Assembly (NCBI RefSeq): GCF_029233945.1
Contig: NZ_JARGOQ010000016.1
Coordinates: 1-61,262, forward strand
DNA: 61,262 nucleotides
Source of the DNA: Sneathiella sp.
GTDB lineage: Bacteria; Pseudomonadota; Alphaproteobacteria; Sneathiellales; Sneathiellaceae
Direction of reading: 5' to 3'
The position numbers and the translations under genes are program-made. Below the pieces are notes generated by a model. It saw only the letters and a program-made list of their open reading frames with translations, was not told the origin of the DNA and ran no database searches. Numbering within the stretch: position 1 is the first letter of the stretch; the number at the start of each line of letters is the position of its first letter. Below are positions 5,497 to 17,266 of this stretch, piece by piece.

Positions 5497-6702
5497 TTAA
5501 GCGCCCTCTTTTCCGACAATGGTGATGGAGCAGACATTCTGATGCGGGAAACCACCCAGATTATGCGTCATACCGACGACCGGCTCTTCTTTACGCTGGC
5601 GTTCGCCAGCGCGGCCCTGCATCTGAAGATACATCTCATAGATCATCCGAAGGCCTGATGCGCCGATCGGGTGGCCAAAGCATTTCAGCCCGCCGTCGAT
5701 CTGGCAAGGGACTTTGCCATCTGCATCATAGAAGCCGTTCATTACGTCATTGACGGCATCTCCCTCTTCGGAAATGAACAGATCTTCCATGGTGACCAGT
5801 TCGGTAATGGAGAAGCAGTCATGAACCTCGAACATACTGACCTGGTCGCGTGGCTTGGTGATACCGGCTTCCTTATAGGCCCGGTTCGCGGCCGCCCGGG
5901 TGGTAACGAAATAGCTGCCATCCCAGGAGTTGTGCTGTGCTTCCGTTCCGTTGGAGGCGGAGAGTTGCAGCGCCTTGACCGTAATAAGGTCTTTCTTGCC
6001 GAGAGATTTCGCAATTTCCGGCGTCGTGACGATGGCGCAGGCTGATCCGTCACTCACGCCGCAGCAATCGAAGAGACCAAGTGGTTCCGCGATCATGGGG
6101 GCGTTCATCACTTTCTCTTCATTGATCTTATTGCGAAGATGTGCTTTTGGGTTTTTGGATCCGTTGTCATGGCTCTTGACGGAGATATGGGCCATGGCCC
6201 GTTTCATATCTTCCTTGCTGACACCATGTTTTGCCGAATAGGCGGACGCCAGCTGAGCGAAGGAGCCGGGCGCCGAGGCATTGGCCCAGAAAAGGTCATT
6301 CACTGAGCCCCGATTGCGCTGAGGCAGGCCACCATACCCCGTGTCCTTGAGTTTTTCGACACCGAGTGCGAGAGCAATATCGCAGGCGCCGGATGCAACC
6401 GCATAGACAGCACCACGGAAAGCTTCAGATCCGCTGGCGCAGTAGTTTTCAACGCGCGTTACCGGAATATTTGGCAAACGAAGCGCCATGGAAAGAGGCA
6501 CTGCGGATTTGCCGACATGTTCTTCCTCGATGGCAGTTCCAAGCCATGCTGCTTCAATCTGGCTTTTCTCAATTCCGGCGTCTTCCAAAGCTTCGACATA
6601 GGCTTCGATCATCAGATCTTCCGCATTATTATTCCAGCGCTCGCCGAATTTGGAGCAGCCCATGCCGATAATAGCAACTTTATCTTTAATTCCTGAGGCC
6701 AT
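5497..6702 (-). CDS. Thiolase of the archaeal/SCP-x type
   Basis: A 401-residue thiolase-superfamily protein. The nucleophilic Cys is at residue 88 (ENYCASGSEAF). Other active-site segments are EVHDCFSITE and KCFGHPIGASG. The classical C-terminal second Cys motif is replaced by MTHNLGGFP, as in archaeal acetoacetyl-CoA thiolases and sterol-carrier-type thiolases. Members of this class either cleave 3-oxoacyl-CoA or act as retro-aldolases (Ltp2-like), often with a DUF35 partner. Here the partner is the gene immediately upstream: its stop lies 2 nt before this start, so translation is probably coupled. AAGGAG precedes the start. Confidence 0.88.
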   Translation of the reverse strand: MASGIKDKVAIIGMGCSKFGERWNNNAEDLMIEAYVEALEDAGIEKSQIEAAWLGTAIEEEHVGKSAVPLSMALRLPNIPVTRVENYCASGSEAFRGAVYAVASGACDIALALGVEKLKDTGYGGLPQRNRGSVNDLFWANASAPGSFAQLASAYSAKHGVSKEDMKRAMAHISVKSHDNGSKNPKAHLRNKINEEKVMNAPMIAEPLGLFDCCGVSDGSACAIVTTPEIAKSLGKKDLITVKALQLSASNGTEAQHNSWDGSYFVTTRAAANRAYKEAGITKPRDQVSMFEVHDCFSITELVTMEDLFISEEGDAVNDVMNGFYDADGKVPCQIDGGLKCFGHPIGASGLRMIYEMYLQMQGRAGERQRKEEPVVGMTHNLGGFPHQNVCSITIVGKEGA

Positions 6703-6704
6703 TG

Positions 6705-8174
6705 TTATTCTCCTTTATTTGAAGCGTCCGCGGGGGCCGCTTTCCAGAAATAGCGCCTGAACCCGCGCTTGTCGTCATAGTCCTTGATCCGGAACATCAT
6801 CCGCATCGGCATTCCCACCTGGATATCCGTCTCCGGTGAGATATCCGTGAAGTCACTCATCAAGCGACCACCTTCTTCGAACTGGATCATGCCGTAATAG
6901 GCGGGCGGGTCCGGCGAATAGGTGAGCCGGTCAGCGGTAAAGGAATTCACCTTGGAAAGCCGCTCTGCGAAGGGGTAATCTTCCTGTGTACCGATGGCGC
7001 CACAATTTTCATTCACGCACATATTGGACTTCGGGAACTGCGCCGTGCCGCATTGAGAGCATTGCCCGCCAATCATCGCCTGGGTCATTCCCTTGTTTCG
7101 GTAAAGGGTCGTGAGACCCGTTTTCTTGTCGGTTTCCGCGCGAATGCCACGCTCCAGATTGATGAGATTGTGGAACGCGAGAAACTTGCCGTAATTCGTT
7201 TCCGCGTAACGCCGGGCAAGATGTCCTGAGACACCTTTACGGGGTGAGAGCGAATTGATTTCCTCCGTCACTTCGAACAGCAGGGCGTCGCTGCCCTGAC
7301 CGAAGCTTGCGACAAGAATTTTATCGCCAGGTTTGCTGTTCTCAATGGCGTGGGCGAGCATGACCATGGAATGGGCCGTGCCAGTTTCCCCGCAGGTTGC
7401 CTGCAGGTTATCTGCGACGGCACTTTCGGGTAGGCCGAGTTTCTTCGCAAGCATTGCAGCGACGCCACGTGCGGCGACGGGGAAGCAGAAGGTGGTAATA
7501 TCCTCTGCCTTGACACCGGTTTCAGACAAAAGTGCAGAAATCGCGCTTGGGACAATCTTCAAATATCCTTCATCCCGGATCCAGCGTTCTTCCCAGTTAT
7601 AGTCGTAGGCTTCGCCTTCGCCGCGAAAGTGATCGACGAAATCGACGGCTTCCGTATGGCTGCCAATAAGGCGGGCGATTACTTTTCCCTGCCCAACCAG
7701 AAAAGCGGCGGCTCCGTCACCGGAGGTGAATTCCAGCGGGCTTGCTGCTTTGGTCTGACGTTTTTCCGCCGTAGTGAAAAGAATTGGACCGCTGCCTCCT
7801 TTGGCAACCTGCAGAGCAGTAGACAATCCAGCACTGCCAGCTCTCTGGGAGGACGCGAAATCAAGGGTTTGCAAGCTGCTGCTTAAGTTGAGCGCATCGG
7901 CGACAATGCCAGCATTCTGCCGATCCATGAACGGAAAGCTCGTCGAGGCCATATAGACGGCAGATACGTCGCCGCGGTCAGAGTCTGCGAGGCAATCCCG
8001 CGCGGCTTCGACGGCCATGGTGACGCTATCCTCGTCCCAATTTGCCATGGCTCTTTCGCCCTTGGCGAGGCCATTCAGGCCCGGGTTAAACCAGCTGTGA
8101 GCTTTGGCGATTTCACTACGTTGCAATCGGCTTTGCGGGATATATCCCCCGTAGGCCAATATTCCTACTTCCAT
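6705..8174 (-). CDS. HMG-CoA-synthase-fold protein fused to a zinc-ribbon/OB (DUF35) domain, probably catalytically inactive
   Basis: A 489-residue fusion. Residues 1-300 follow the fold of archaeal HMG-CoA synthase. A zinc ribbon follows (C372, C375, C386, C391) and then an OB-fold (about 395-480), as in DUF35 acyl-CoA-binding proteins. The usual catalytic triad seems lost: the nucleophile region reads FASSQRAGSAG with Gln110/Arg111 where Cys is expected, the Glu region reads MASTSFP (Thr78), and the His region reads TFCFPVA (Cys230). Alignment is by eye. Its only close partner is the thiolase starting 2 nt downstream, so it may bind and position substrate for that enzyme. It could still catalyse another reaction, such as decarboxylation. 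Confidence 0.85.
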   Translation of the reverse strand: MEVGILAYGGYIPQSRLQRSEIAKAHSWFNPGLNGLAKGERAMANWDEDSVTMAVEAARDCLADSDRGDVSAVYMASTSFPFMDRQNAGIVADALNLSSSLQTLDFASSQRAGSAGLSTALQVAKGGSGPILFTTAEKRQTKAASPLEFTSGDGAAAFLVGQGKVIARLIGSHTEAVDFVDHFRGEGEAYDYNWEERWIRDEGYLKIVPSAISALLSETGVKAEDITTFCFPVAARGVAAMLAKKLGLPESAVADNLQATCGETGTAHSMVMLAHAIENSKPGDKILVASFGQGSDALLFEVTEEINSLSPRKGVSGHLARRYAETNYGKFLAFHNLINLERGIRAETDKKTGLTTLYRNKGMTQAMIGGQCSQCGTAQFPKSNMCVNENCGAIGTQEDYPFAERLSKVNSFTADRLTYSPDPPAYYGMIQFEEGGRLMSDFTDISPETDIQVGMPMRMMFRIKDYDDKRGFRRYFWKAAPADASNKGE

Positions 8175-8222
8175 TTGGAAAGGCTCCTTTTTTATTATTT
8201 CTTAGTGCCACATATATATTGC

Positions 8223-8260
8223 AGGAAATAAGCGTTAAAATTCCCGCAAAAATATTTCCT
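8223..8260. promoter_or_regulatory. Inverted repeat in the divergent promoter region
   Basis: Perfect 8-bp arms (AGGAAATA at 8223-8230, its complement at 8253-8260) are separated by 22 nt in the 225-nt region between the divergent pseudo-synthase and carboxylase genes. It could be an operator with two half-sites or chance in AT-rich DNA. It does not match the TetR palindrome at 18504. Confidence 0.3.
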
Positions 8261-8399
8261 ACAGGGCGACAGTTTAAAGCGACTATGGGCGTAACGCCAG
8301 AAAATTAAATCATGCCTCGGTCGGTCGCGTCTTTTTTTCTTAACGGTGCAAACTTTCCTATGCTATCAATAAAGAAAAAATAAAAATCGGGAGTTCCGA

Positions 8400-10022
8400 A
8401 TGGCCGTTTTCTCATCCAAAATTGTTACCTCTTCTGACAGTTTTGCTGCCAATCGACAGGAGATGCTATCGCTTGTCGATGAATTGCATGCGTTAAAAGA
8501 CCGCGCAAAGCAATTGTCCGAGCGGCGGCGCGCCAGGTTTGAGGAGCGCGGACAGCTTACCCCGCGTGAGCGGCTGGTACGCCTTCTCGATCCAGGAATG
8601 CCGTTTCTGGAGTTGTTTGGCCTCGCCAACTATTGTGTAGATACGACTGACCGGGACAAAAGCATTCCCGGCGCAAGTTCACTGGCCGGTATCGGGTTCA
8701 TTAATGGCGTGCGATGCATGATCTTAGCAAGCGACAGTGGAATCAATGCAGGCGCAATGACCCAAAAATCAGGGGAAAAAGTTCGTCGGTGCCAGGATAT
8801 AGCAATTGATAAAAAGCTTCCCTTTGTGCATCTCGTTGAGAGTGCAGGGGCCAATCTCCTGAAATATCAGGTTGAATCCTGGGCGCATGGCGGGGGTGGC
8901 TTCCAACGACTCGCAAAGCTGAGTGCCGCTGGCATCCCGACCTTCGTTGTGCTGCACGGACCGTCAACAGCAGGCGGGGCGTATTTCCCAGGCATGAGTG
9001 ATTATGTGATTGGCATCAAGGGTCGGGGGCGGGCTTCGCTTGGCGGCGCAGCTCTGGTGCGGGCGGCAACCGGTGAAATTTCGGATGATGAAGAGCTTGC
9101 AGGATCGGAAATGCATGCGACCACCACGGGGCTTGTCGAATATCTCGCTGAAGATGACGCCCATGGCCTTCTGATCGCGCGGGATATTATCGGTCGACTC
9201 GGCTGGAACGACAAATGCCCAAGGCCGGAAGTGAAAAGCTTCAAGGAGCCACTCTATGACCCCGAGGAAATTGCCGGGGTCGTGCCCGTGGATTATCGAA
9301 AGCCCTACGATGTACGTGAAGTTGTTGCCCGGCTCGTTGATGGCTCCGATTTTGAAGAATTCAAGCCGCGTTATGGATCAACACTTGTCTGTCTGCAGGC
9401 TAATATCTTTGGGCAAGCCTGTGGCATTGTTGGTAATAATGGCCCGATCGATCCCGATGGGGCGGCCAAGGGCGGACAGTTCTTCCAGCTCTGCGATCAG
9501 GCAAACATTCCGCTCATCTTCCTCAACAATATTACCGGCTATATGGTCGGCAAGGAATATGAACAAAAAGGTATGATCAAGCATGGATCGAAAATGATTC
9601 AGGCCGTCTCCAATGTTCGTGTGCCGAAGATCACATTCTATATCGGCGCAAGTTTCGGGGCGGGAAACTACGGCATGGCCGGTCTTGCGTATGACCCGGA
9701 TTTCCTGTTTGCCTGGCCTAATGCCAAGACTGGTGTTATGGGCGGAGAACAGGCGGCAGTCACCATGGATCAGGTGGCGAGAAGCGGCGCCGAACGCAAG
9801 GGCGTGCCCGTCGATGAAGAAGCACTGGCAGCGCAAAAGGCGCGGTTGATTGAGCATTTCGATAGTCAGGCGGATGCTTTCTATACCTCCGGACGACTTC
9901 TCGACCAAGGGGTTGTCGATCCGCGCGATAGCCGAAAGATCATCGGCTTTGCGCTGCAAACCTGCTGGGAGGCGCGTAACCGTACCTTGCAACCGAACAG
10001 CTTCGGCGTTGGCCGTCTCTAA
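8400..10022 (+). CDS. atuC: Biotin-dependent acyl-CoA carboxylase, carboxyltransferase beta subunit (AtuC-like)
   Basis: A 540-residue carboxyltransferase subunit of the methylcrotonyl/geranyl-CoA carboxylase class. It would move CO2 from carboxybiotin to the gamma-methyl group of a 3-methyl-2-enoyl-CoA. The N-half has the CoA-site segment HGPSTAGGAYFPGMSDY; the C-half has GASFGAGNYGMAGLAYDP and GVMGGEQAA. Geranyl- and methylcrotonyl-CoA carboxylases differ in acyl-pocket size. A glycine-rich stretch (HGGGGFQRLAKLS) stands where methylcrotonyl enzymes carry bulky aromatics, which I take as mild support for a long isoprenoid substrate. The biotin subunit follows after 52 nt, and the neighbouring AtuD and AtuA homologues favour the Atu assignment. 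Confidence 0.85.
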   Translation: MAVFSSKIVTSSDSFAANRQEMLSLVDELHALKDRAKQLSERRRARFEERGQLTPRERLVRLLDPGMPFLELFGLANYCVDTTDRDKSIPGASSLAGIGFINGVRCMILASDSGINAGAMTQKSGEKVRRCQDIAIDKKLPFVHLVESAGANLLKYQVESWAHGGGGFQRLAKLSAAGIPTFVVLHGPSTAGGAYFPGMSDYVIGIKGRGRASLGGAALVRAATGEISDDEELAGSEMHATTTGLVEYLAEDDAHGLLIARDIIGRLGWNDKCPRPEVKSFKEPLYDPEEIAGVVPVDYRKPYDVREVVARLVDGSDFEEFKPRYGSTLVCLQANIFGQACGIVGNNGPIDPDGAAKGGQFFQLCDQANIPLIFLNNITGYMVGKEYEQKGMIKHGSKMIQAVSNVRVPKITFYIGASFGAGNYGMAGLAYDPDFLFAWPNAKTGVMGGEQAAVTMDQVARSGAERKGVPVDEEALAAQKARLIEHFDSQADAFYTSGRLLDQGVVDPRDSRKIIGFALQTCWEARNRTLQPNSFGVGRL

Positions 10023-12907: not shown

Positions 12908-16050
<3,143 letters not shown>

Positions 16051-16054
16051 GGGG

Positions 16055-17266
16055 TTATCCTTGTGCCGGACGCGGTTCGCGTGGCATGTCGAGCCCGCGC
16101 TCCGCGATAATGTTTTTCTGAATCTGGGCGGTGCCGCCACCAATAATAAGCCCGAGATCGTACATATGGAGCTGTTGCCAGATGCCATCTAACTCTATCG
16201 ACGGGATGCCGTCATATAGAACGCCGGCTTCCTCAAGAATATCAATAGCAAGCCCATCCAGTTGGTGGTTCAACTCACAGCCAATGAGCTTGCAGACCAT
16301 ATCGCCGAGACCTCTCGGTTTGCCTGCGGCGGCATCCGATATCAGGCGCATTTCATGGAACCGCATGCCTTGTACGCGGGCCTGCAGACGGATATACCGG
16401 TCCATCAACGGAGCGTTTTCGCCAATTGGGCGGCCATCGGATCCTTCCCTCTTGAGCAGTTTTTCGATTTTCTGGAGACGTTCATGGGATAAGTTCGCGT
16501 TGGATAGCATGCCTCGTTCATGCGAGAGAGTGCTATTCGCGACTTTCCAGCCCTTACCCCGCCCGCCGACAACCGCGCTTTTGGGAACGCGTACATCAGT
16601 AAAGAAAACTTCGTTAAAAGATGGGTGCCCCGTCATTGTCTGAAGCGGGCGTATCTCAATGCCTGGGGTGTCCATTGGAAAGATCAAATAACTTATGCCG
16701 TCATACTTCCCGGCCTCGGGTTCTGTCCGGACAAGGCAGAAGATCATCTGCGCGACATGGGCGGAGGAGGTCCATATTTTCGAGCCGTTGATGATGAAGT
16801 CGTCACCATCTTCTGTCGCGCTGGTCTGCAAGCTGGCGAGGTCGGAGCCGGAATTAGGCTCTGAATAACCCTGGCACCAGAATACCTCAGTGCGAATTGT
16901 CCGGCTGATCCATTCCTTTTTCTGCTCCTCTGTTCCATGCTCCAGCAGGGTCGGTACCAGCATGGAGATACCCTGGCTGTATAGGCCTTGTGGCACATTT
17001 GCCTTGAAAAATTCATCGGCAATGACTTTCGACTTCAGAATGTCAGGTTCCGCACCGAACCCGCCATATTCGGACGGCACCGTTCGGTTTGCATATCCTT
17101 TTTCCACCAGTAGCTGTTGCCAGTTCTGGACTTCCTCAGAATAGGGGCGCGGCATCAGCCGGTAGGAATGGGCCGTGTCCTCAGGTGCGAGATGCCGATG
17201 CTCGGAAATAAATGTCCGCACTTCTTCGCGAAACTGCCTGTGTTCCGCGTGATCCGTTAAATCCAT
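16055..17266 (-). CDS. Acyl-CoA dehydrogenase, candidate catalytic subunit of a heteromeric pair (FadE26/28-like)
   Basis: A 403-residue dehydrogenase with GYSEPNSGSDLASL, INGSKIWTSSAH and a C-terminal GGGTAQIQKNIIAERGL. The medium-chain catalytic Glu is Gly here, but Glu250 (STLSHERGM) lies where the ChsE4-type steroid side-chain dehydrogenases place theirs. It is the upstream member of a tightly packed pair (gap 4 nt), which supports an alpha2beta2 enzyme. Such enzymes oxidise branched side chains with bulky ends, suggesting a substrate larger than a simple fatty acyl-CoA. It starts 10 nt after the atuD-like gene in the same minus-strand operon. Confidence 0.85.
   Translation of the reverse strand: MDLTDHAEHRQFREEVRTFISEHRHLAPEDTAHSYRLMPRPYSEEVQNWQQLLVEKGYANRTVPSEYGGFGAEPDILKSKVIADEFFKANVPQGLYSQGISMLVPTLLEHGTEEQKKEWISRTIRTEVFWCQGYSEPNSGSDLASLQTSATEDGDDFIINGSKIWTSSAHVAQMIFCLVRTEPEAGKYDGISYLIFPMDTPGIEIRPLQTMTGHPSFNEVFFTDVRVPKSAVVGGRGKGWKVANSTLSHERGMLSNANLSHERLQKIEKLLKREGSDGRPIGENAPLMDRYIRLQARVQGMRFHEMRLISDAAAGKPRGLGDMVCKLIGCELNHQLDGLAIDILEEAGVLYDGIPSIELDGIWQQLHMYDLGLIIGGGTAQIQKNIIAERGLDMPREPRPAQG

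Follow-up and report, generated by a model that had tools for sequence, protein, structure and literature searches.

DUF35 domains are described as docking other domains, catalytic as well as inert, on enzymes with a thiolase fold; in ChsH2 the inert MaoC domain is reported to take the bulky steroid (PMC11321319). Fusions of DUF35 to proteins of the thiolase superfamily were reported in 2010, where PhlA was named as an inactive member (PMC2954200). According to the published account of PhlABC, the complex assembles as (A2C2)2B4 and encloses a continuous cavity to whose lining PhlA, PhlB and PhlC each contribute one copy; only residues of PhlC catalyse, PhlA is devoid of the catalytic Cys and Glu, and the three subunits are all required, so that their genes have to be co-expressed (PMC6392133). 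For CsATase the exchange C88S in PhlC is stated to abolish activity (PMC12955522), and a report on S. mutans holds that the muc genes A to C acetylate tetramates (PMC10161427). Thus a dead subunit resembling HMG-CoA synthase (HMGCS) in a thiolase complex is already known. Because PhlA was known to be without Cys and Glu, the idea of a scaffold, which a preliminary description of the present locus had put forward, is largely precedented, and with PhlA published and solved its novelty is less than was thought there. On the other hand, the open-licence literature yielded no description of a fused, triad-less family with a conserved pocket and a true thiolase as the partner.

The window, i.e. the whole stretch of 61,262 nt that was analysed, carries a gene for an HMGCS-like domain fused to DUF35 (Table 1). 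The protein of 489 amino acids gave Pfam matches to ACP_syn_III_C, zf-ChsH2 and OB_ChsH2_C. Both members of the DUF35 domain pair, PF12172 and PF01796, scored above their gathering thresholds, in line with the preliminary description, which had regarded the zinc ribbon and the OB domain as intact. A Shine-Dalgarno sequence, AAGGAG, is located 9 nt ahead of the ATG. The four zinc cysteines were present in 81 of 81 alignment rows, two of which are the window gene and its copy from its own genome. Among the plasmid homologues, L123 and L127 from Sphingomonas paeninsulae and Sphingopyxis have lost zinc-ribbon cysteines, which counts against the complex proposed below; both retain the adjacent thiolase. 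The own genome contained one match to the fusion protein at E 1e-5. Five more DUF35 zinc-ribbon matches in this genome (C4, three on C6, and C62) are in frames of 136-180 amino acids that are apparently stand-alone.

Table 1. Features of the fusion gene and the adjoining thiolase gene (positions in the window)
Feature	Position	Strand	Basis or remark
Triad-less HMG-CoA-synthase fold fused to DUF35 (CDS, 489 aa)	6705..8174	minus	
N-terminal HMGCS/ketosynthase-III-like domain, residues 1-340	7155..8174	minus	Fold match to 6esq_I and phmmer
Thr78, column of catalytic Glu82 of 6ESQ	7941..7943	minus	Sequence alignments
Gln110, column of nucleophile Cys114 of 6ESQ	7845..7847	minus	Sequence alignments
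Residues 191-200 (DYNWEERWIR), densest invariant run among 80 close relatives (best 80 of 253)	7575..7604	minus	7/10 invariant
Pro232, column of catalytic His of 6ESQ	7479..7481	minus	Sequence alignments
C-terminal DUF35 region, residues 341-489, linker included	6708..7154	minus	Pfam and fold matches
Rubredoxin-like zinc ribbon (PF12172), Cys372/375/386/391	6999..7073	minus	24.1 bits, cut-off 23.2
OB-fold domain (PF01796)	6789..6923	minus	32.9 bits, cut-off 27.1
Thiolase Shine-Dalgarno sequence AAAGGAG, within last codons of fusion gene	6710..6716	minus	
SCP2-type thiolase, 401 aa, Cys88, His294-Asp-Cys296-Phe, Cys341-Phe-Gly-His344-Pro	5497..6702	minus	NF004810 and alignment

Relatives were collected from two sources. 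A GTDB scan matched 314 stretches, of which 253 encode relatives, and the best 80 with identities of 53-96% were kept. After the incomplete L080 was dropped, the window gene and 79 loci provided 80 distinct full-length fused proteins. The closest named relative among the best 80 of 253 was that of Sneathiella sp. HT1-7 (L002) with 96% identity. A plasmid search returned 57 records; in 45 of these a single place covers at least 80% of the query. Of the 57 records, 19 were read. These 19 homologues come from Alpha- and Betaproteobacteria, Rhodococcus, Mycobacterium avium, Streptomyces and three haloarchaea, and mostly they are more distant than the best 80 scan relatives. Both sets add up to 99 fused proteins from Proteobacteria, Actinomycetota and Haloarchaea. 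When 299 genomes of the phylum were sampled, the own genome included, a match was present in 11 and was full-length in 8, one of them with an internal TGA.

The catalytic residues of HMGCS were located by alignment with the archaeal enzyme from the Methanothermococcus complex (6ESQ; phmmer, E 1.7e-31). The column of Cys114 (FACKAG) is occupied by Gln110 and that of Glu82 (SESHP) by Thr78; at the catalytic His (FHQPN) phmmer and MAFFT agree on Pro232. No conserved Cys/Glu/His triad was thus found in the window protein. The preliminary description had recognized this loss, yet it had placed the His at Cys230, two residues away. In the same alignment PhlA has Gly at the Cys column and Cys at the Glu column; the register is supported because this agrees with Gly115 and Cys83 as published for PhlA at these positions (PMC6392133).

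Cys at position 110 or Glu at position 78 was found in none of the 99 fused proteins, the window gene included. Position 78 was Thr in all of the 80 close relatives (best 80 of 253) and in 17 of the 19 plasmid homologues, the others having Ala and Ser, i.e. in 97 of 99. Position 110 was Gln in 71 of the close relatives (best 80 of 253), Leu in 5, Met in 3 and Arg in 1, and in the plasmid homologues Ala, Pro, Thr and others replace Gln. Position 232 was Pro in every one of the 80 close relatives (best 80 of 253), and in the plasmid set Pro in 5, His in 3 (L127, L131 and L132 from Sphingopyxis, Haladaptatus and Halostella) and another residue in 11. Hence 96 of the 99 fused proteins are without the His. 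Unlike in the close relatives, both Pro232 and Gln110 vary in the plasmid set. Three HMGCS-like proteins of bacteria, whether fused or not (L099, L101 and L102), served as a positive control and have Cys in a matching QACY context. The loss of Cys and Glu is thus family-wide and Thr78 nearly so, Pro232 marks the closer relatives, and the loss of the triad exceeds chance.

The fusion gene is under purifying selection. Compared with six Sneathiella loci its dN/dS was 0.027-0.069 and that of the thiolase 0.019-0.029, both rough values as dS was high; no value was obtained against L009 and L012, where dS was saturated. Decay into a pseudogene was ruled out by the low dN/dS together with the conservation. 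In the first 340 positions 38 were invariant in the 80 close relatives (best 80 of 253). Ten invariant positions are absent from 6ESQ, PhlA and the 9VBO chain, namely Arg19, Ala76, Thr78, Asp191, Tyr192, Trp194, Glu195, Trp198, Arg200 and Pro232. A mere scaffold need not show such group-specific positions nor a pocket that is conserved in the close relatives, which argues against this role. Trp28 is common to 6ESQ, PhlA and the 9VBO chain, and by analogy with FabH we presume that it may stack on CoA.

The fusion protein was modelled with AlphaFold2 from 60 sequences (mean pLDDT 88, pTM 0.91). Four complexes supplied the closest chains to the predicted model: the HMGCS chain 6esq_I of 6ESQ (Z 45.2, rmsd 1.9, 334 residues aligned), CsATase 9SKH (Z 44.1, rmsd 2.1, 337 aligned), PhlABC 5MG5 (Z 43.0, rmsd 2.8, 344 aligned) and 9VBO, which is titled MucABC in its entry (Z 41.0, rmsd 3.0, 341 aligned). 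Free-standing HMG-CoA synthases ranked below these with Z of 37.7 and lower. By phmmer the nearest solved proteins were the Methanothermococcus HMGCS, followed by the PhlA chains of CsATase (3.1e-29) and PhlABC (4e-25) and the 9VBO chain (9.1e-20). The blocks of residues 181-190 and 191-200 had pLDDT values of 68 and 60, and lower values were seen only in the linker 341-350 and the C-terminal tail. Because the densest invariant run is yet among the least confident stretches of the model, residues 191-200 are a candidate contact that may become ordered on a partner or ligand. The bacterial plasmid homologues for the most part retain the WEER core of this run, and the haloarchaeal ones do not.

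In a tree 37 fused proteins formed one clade (98/92), separate from PhlA, CsATase and 9VBO and from HMGCS. The fused proteins may have lost the triad together with PhlA and the 9VBO chain or separately from them: AU tests gave p values of 0.13 and 0.19 for the alternatives, in the presence of long branches of the 9VBO chain, L142 and L130.

The thiolase gene starts 2 nt after the stop of the fusion gene, and the overlap of its Shine-Dalgarno sequence with the last codons suggests translational coupling of the two genes. The thiolase is an equivalog of NF004810 (703 bits with a cut-off of 403). Cys88 and the HDCF and GHP motifs were invariant in 72 of 72 rows; in the thiolases of the plasmid loci the Cys was present in 19 of 19 and both His motifs in all 18 that were readable. 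In 76 of the 80 fetched scan loci (best 80 of 253) the same strand encodes a thiolase, which in 68 loci is within 250 bp by computed distances that include one artefact of -1203. In 8 loci the thiolase is 0.9-6.6 kb off on the same strand (L042, L045, L053, L068, L069, L070, L076 and L079), and 3 of the 80 scan loci end within 220 nt of the fusion gene. A SAR324 record (L066, fusion gene at 113-1567, upstream region cut off) had no recognizable thiolase in the 5.3 kb downstream. Thus 1 of 77 informative loci is without a nearby thiolase, and together with the 8 distant thiolases this speaks against the complex proposed below. In the plasmid loci the thiolase adjoins the fusion gene in 19 of 19 cases, being upstream in haloarchaea. 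The thiolase at 7448-8634 of a Paraburkholderia plasmid (L143) consists of two overlapping pieces in different frames, is absent from the gene table and looks broken or mis-sequenced.

The thiolase was the only conserved neighbour in the loci read. When the frames of 80 loci were clustered, the fusion gene came out in 61 and the thiolase in 56, with the frame caller losing some that tblastn finds; all other families were present in at most 13 loci, and the family at this ceiling is probably an overlapping spurious frame. A shared catabolic operon was thus ruled out as a clue to the substrate, no other family going beyond 13 of 80 loci. A count by eye within 6 kb of the pair gave, for the 18 annotated plasmid loci, 15 with a hydratase, 10 with an acyl-CoA dehydrogenase and 10 with an SDR dehydrogenase. 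In plasmids of Rhodococcus and Mycobacterium avium (L128, L146 and L147) the pair follows a set of aromatic-ring dioxygenase and CoA ligase, which recalls the side-chain removal of the ibuprofen type. A thiolase encoded by ipfDE is mentioned for the ibuprofen system (PMC9195938), and we take this as a lead only.

In the window the pair is part of an island at 1622-25249 that comprises a CoA ligase, four acyl-CoA dehydrogenases, two enoyl-CoA hydratases, an acyl-CoA carboxylase pair, an OYE-type reductase, a TIGR03084 protein, AtuA (PF07287), a CoA transferase and an ATP-grasp acyl-CoA synthetase. It looks like an island for the degradation of branched or terpenoid acids. Two of the acyl-CoA dehydrogenase frames, 14926-16188 and 16055-17266, overlap by 134 nt as listed, and for the first an internal start is probable. 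Seven Sneathiella-named loci (L002-L006, L008 and L039) have highly identical carboxylase and OYE genes as neighbours. L019, which is 86% identical, has OYE and AtuA, and among the fetched flanks AtuA is in that of L019 only. The setting of the window thus fits a branched or terpenoid acid, but it is seen only in Sneathiella-named loci and L019. The catabolic genes around the pair lack conservation across the scan loci and so do not pin down a pathway, which counts against the reading given below.

Taken together, the fusion protein is probably a non-catalytic subunit, corresponding to PhlA plus PhlB, of a two-gene complex in which the thiolase cleaves unusual 3-oxoacyl-CoAs. Homology to the solved complexes points to a physical complex. 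The fused chain would take the place of PhlA and PhlB, associate 1:1 with the thiolase and line its active site. The DUF35 half would clamp the HMGCS-like half to the thiolase. Whereas the predicted fold, the general loss of the triad, the complete active site of the thiolase and the pairing of the genes are observed, we infer what the dead pocket does, in which direction the reaction runs and which class of substrate it uses. The HMGCS-like half would be a dead wall that lines the substrate or CoA, the acyl group would be taken up by Cys88 of the thiolase, and acid/base catalysis would come from its HDCF and GHP motifs. The most likely reaction would be the cleavage of a bulky, branched or cyclic 3-oxoacyl-CoA in a pathway similar to beta-oxidation. 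The notion of a non-catalytic holder that serves a partner is thereby supported, with the thiolase as this partner; that it holds acyl-CoA is possible, and the term 'repurposed synthase' used in the preliminary description is plausible.

The pair could instead be a biosynthetic C-acyltransferase like PhlABC and MucABC, with a carbon nucleophile as the acceptor of the acyl group, and indeed those solved relatives whose HMGCS-like chain is without the triad are complexes of acyltransferases. The thiolase speaks against this. Its PDB matches were 7YVY (6.3e-62), the archaeal acetoacetyl-CoA thiolase 6esq_A (1.5e-58) and the benzoylsuccinyl-CoA thiolase BbsB (6.1e-44), while those to Sal (3.8e-21), PhlC (3.6e-18), Ltp2 (5.6e-16) and the MucABC chain (1.5e-14) were far weaker. 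In addition, most of the annotated plasmid loci look like beta-oxidation. Because the thiolase has a full active site and is accompanied on plasmids by hydratases and dehydrogenases, catabolic thiolysis is likelier than biosynthetic acylation, and we regard an acyltransferase as rather unlikely.

Decidedly unlikely is a chemistry of the altered pocket itself, e.g. a decarboxylation as in KSQ domains or a hydrolysis via Thr78, Gln110-Arg111 and Glu263. The high conservation of these residues would fit: besides the figures for Thr78 and Gln110 given above, Arg111 was present in 78 of 81 alignment rows, and position 263, Asn in 6ESQ, was Glu or Asp in 79 of 81. Yet Gln110 is exchanged in 9 of the 80 close relatives (best 80 of 253) and more freely in the plasmid homologues, and the His is nearly always lost. 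KSQ domains typically retain the catalytic His. The KSQ decarboxylase parallel of the preliminary description was therefore given up: the Cys-to-Gln change is there, but Pro232 stands at the His column, Gln110 is not strictly kept and the Asn column has become acidic.

A retro-aldolase as the partner, in analogy to Ltp2-ChsH2 and Sal-Shy, shares the logic of DUF35 docking according to two reports (PMC12329534, PMC11321319). When the DUF35 half was folded alone (pLDDT 76), the model matched the chains of MucABC, 6ESQ, PhlABC and CsATase with Z of 12.1-12.7, and Sal-Shy (Z 11.9) and Ltp2-ChsH2 (Z 11.7) were tied with these HMGCS-containing complexes. The DUF35 half alone thus does not single out the latter, a point against the main reading. 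However, the partner keeps Cys88 and HDCF, where CtSal is reported to use YDCY (PMC12329534), and the Sal and Ltp2 chains match the thiolase far less well than the true thiolases, which makes a retro-aldolase most improbable.

Finally, a functional HMG-CoA synthase whose catalytic residues have moved to other positions, although the archaeal HMGCS is the best match in sequence and structure, is hardly credible at all and was ruled out: the scores remain below the curated cut-offs (NF003274, 210.5 of 244 bits; TIGR00748, 161.2 of 353.35), the triad is missing with no Cys at positions 108-112, the genome, which is 99.68% complete, has no match to PF01154 or to HMG-CoA reductase (PF00368; matched in 5 of 14 controls), and IspG of the alternative MEP pathway is encoded inside the window.

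If the proposed two-gene complex is correct, the fused proteins are pointers to thiolases that act on special substrates, on catabolic plasmids as well as in genomic islands. They would also be an example of an active site that was emptied and then kept for another purpose. The plasmid homologues are annotated as OB-fold domain-containing protein, 3-oxoacyl-ACP synthase III C-terminal domain protein, HMG-CoA synthase or hypothetical, and with 253 relatives in one GTDB scan many genomes carry a misleading or an empty name. More tentatively, and with doubts prevailing, the family might be a large class of pseudoenzyme-assisted thiolases in bacteria and haloarchaea, where the emptied pocket binds the bulky tail or the CoA of the substrate; Thr78 would then mark the site family-wide, and residues 191-200 and Pro232 its form in close relatives. 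As a binding site the emptied HMGCS pocket would parallel the dead MaoC domain of ChsH2.

How does the pair compare with the known systems? ChsH2 likewise combines an inert domain with a DUF35 that docks on a thiolase-fold enzyme (with ChsH1 and Ltp2), but the inert domain has the MaoC hydratase fold and the partner is an aldolase. BbsAB (7PXP) has an SCP2-type thiolase with a DUF35 partner and an unusual substrate, and it is not known to have an HMGCS-like part. The archaeal thiolase-HMGCS complex 6ESQ provides the closest HMGCS-like fold, is among the closest for DUF35 and contains a close relative of the thiolase, yet it retains the Cys114/Glu82/His triad and consists of three separate chains. 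MucABC of Streptococcus macacae (9VBO/9VBT) is a three-component complex with an HMGCS-like chain without Cys and Glu; its chains are separate and the identity to the fusion protein is 22-24%. PhlABC (PpATase, 5M3K/5MG5) and CsATase (9SKH) share with the present locus an HMGCS-like subunit without Cys and Glu, a DUF35 with a Cys4 zinc ribbon, an SCP2-type thiolase with Cys88 and the arrangement in an operon. In contrast to these, the parts that resemble PhlA and PhlB are joined in a single chain in all 99 proteins aligned over both halves, the window gene among them, the residues of the former triad are Thr/Gln/Pro instead of the Cys/Gly/Gln of PhlABC, and the fusion-linked thiolase is much nearer to acetoacetyl-CoA thiolase than to PhlC and is found in mostly catabolic contexts.
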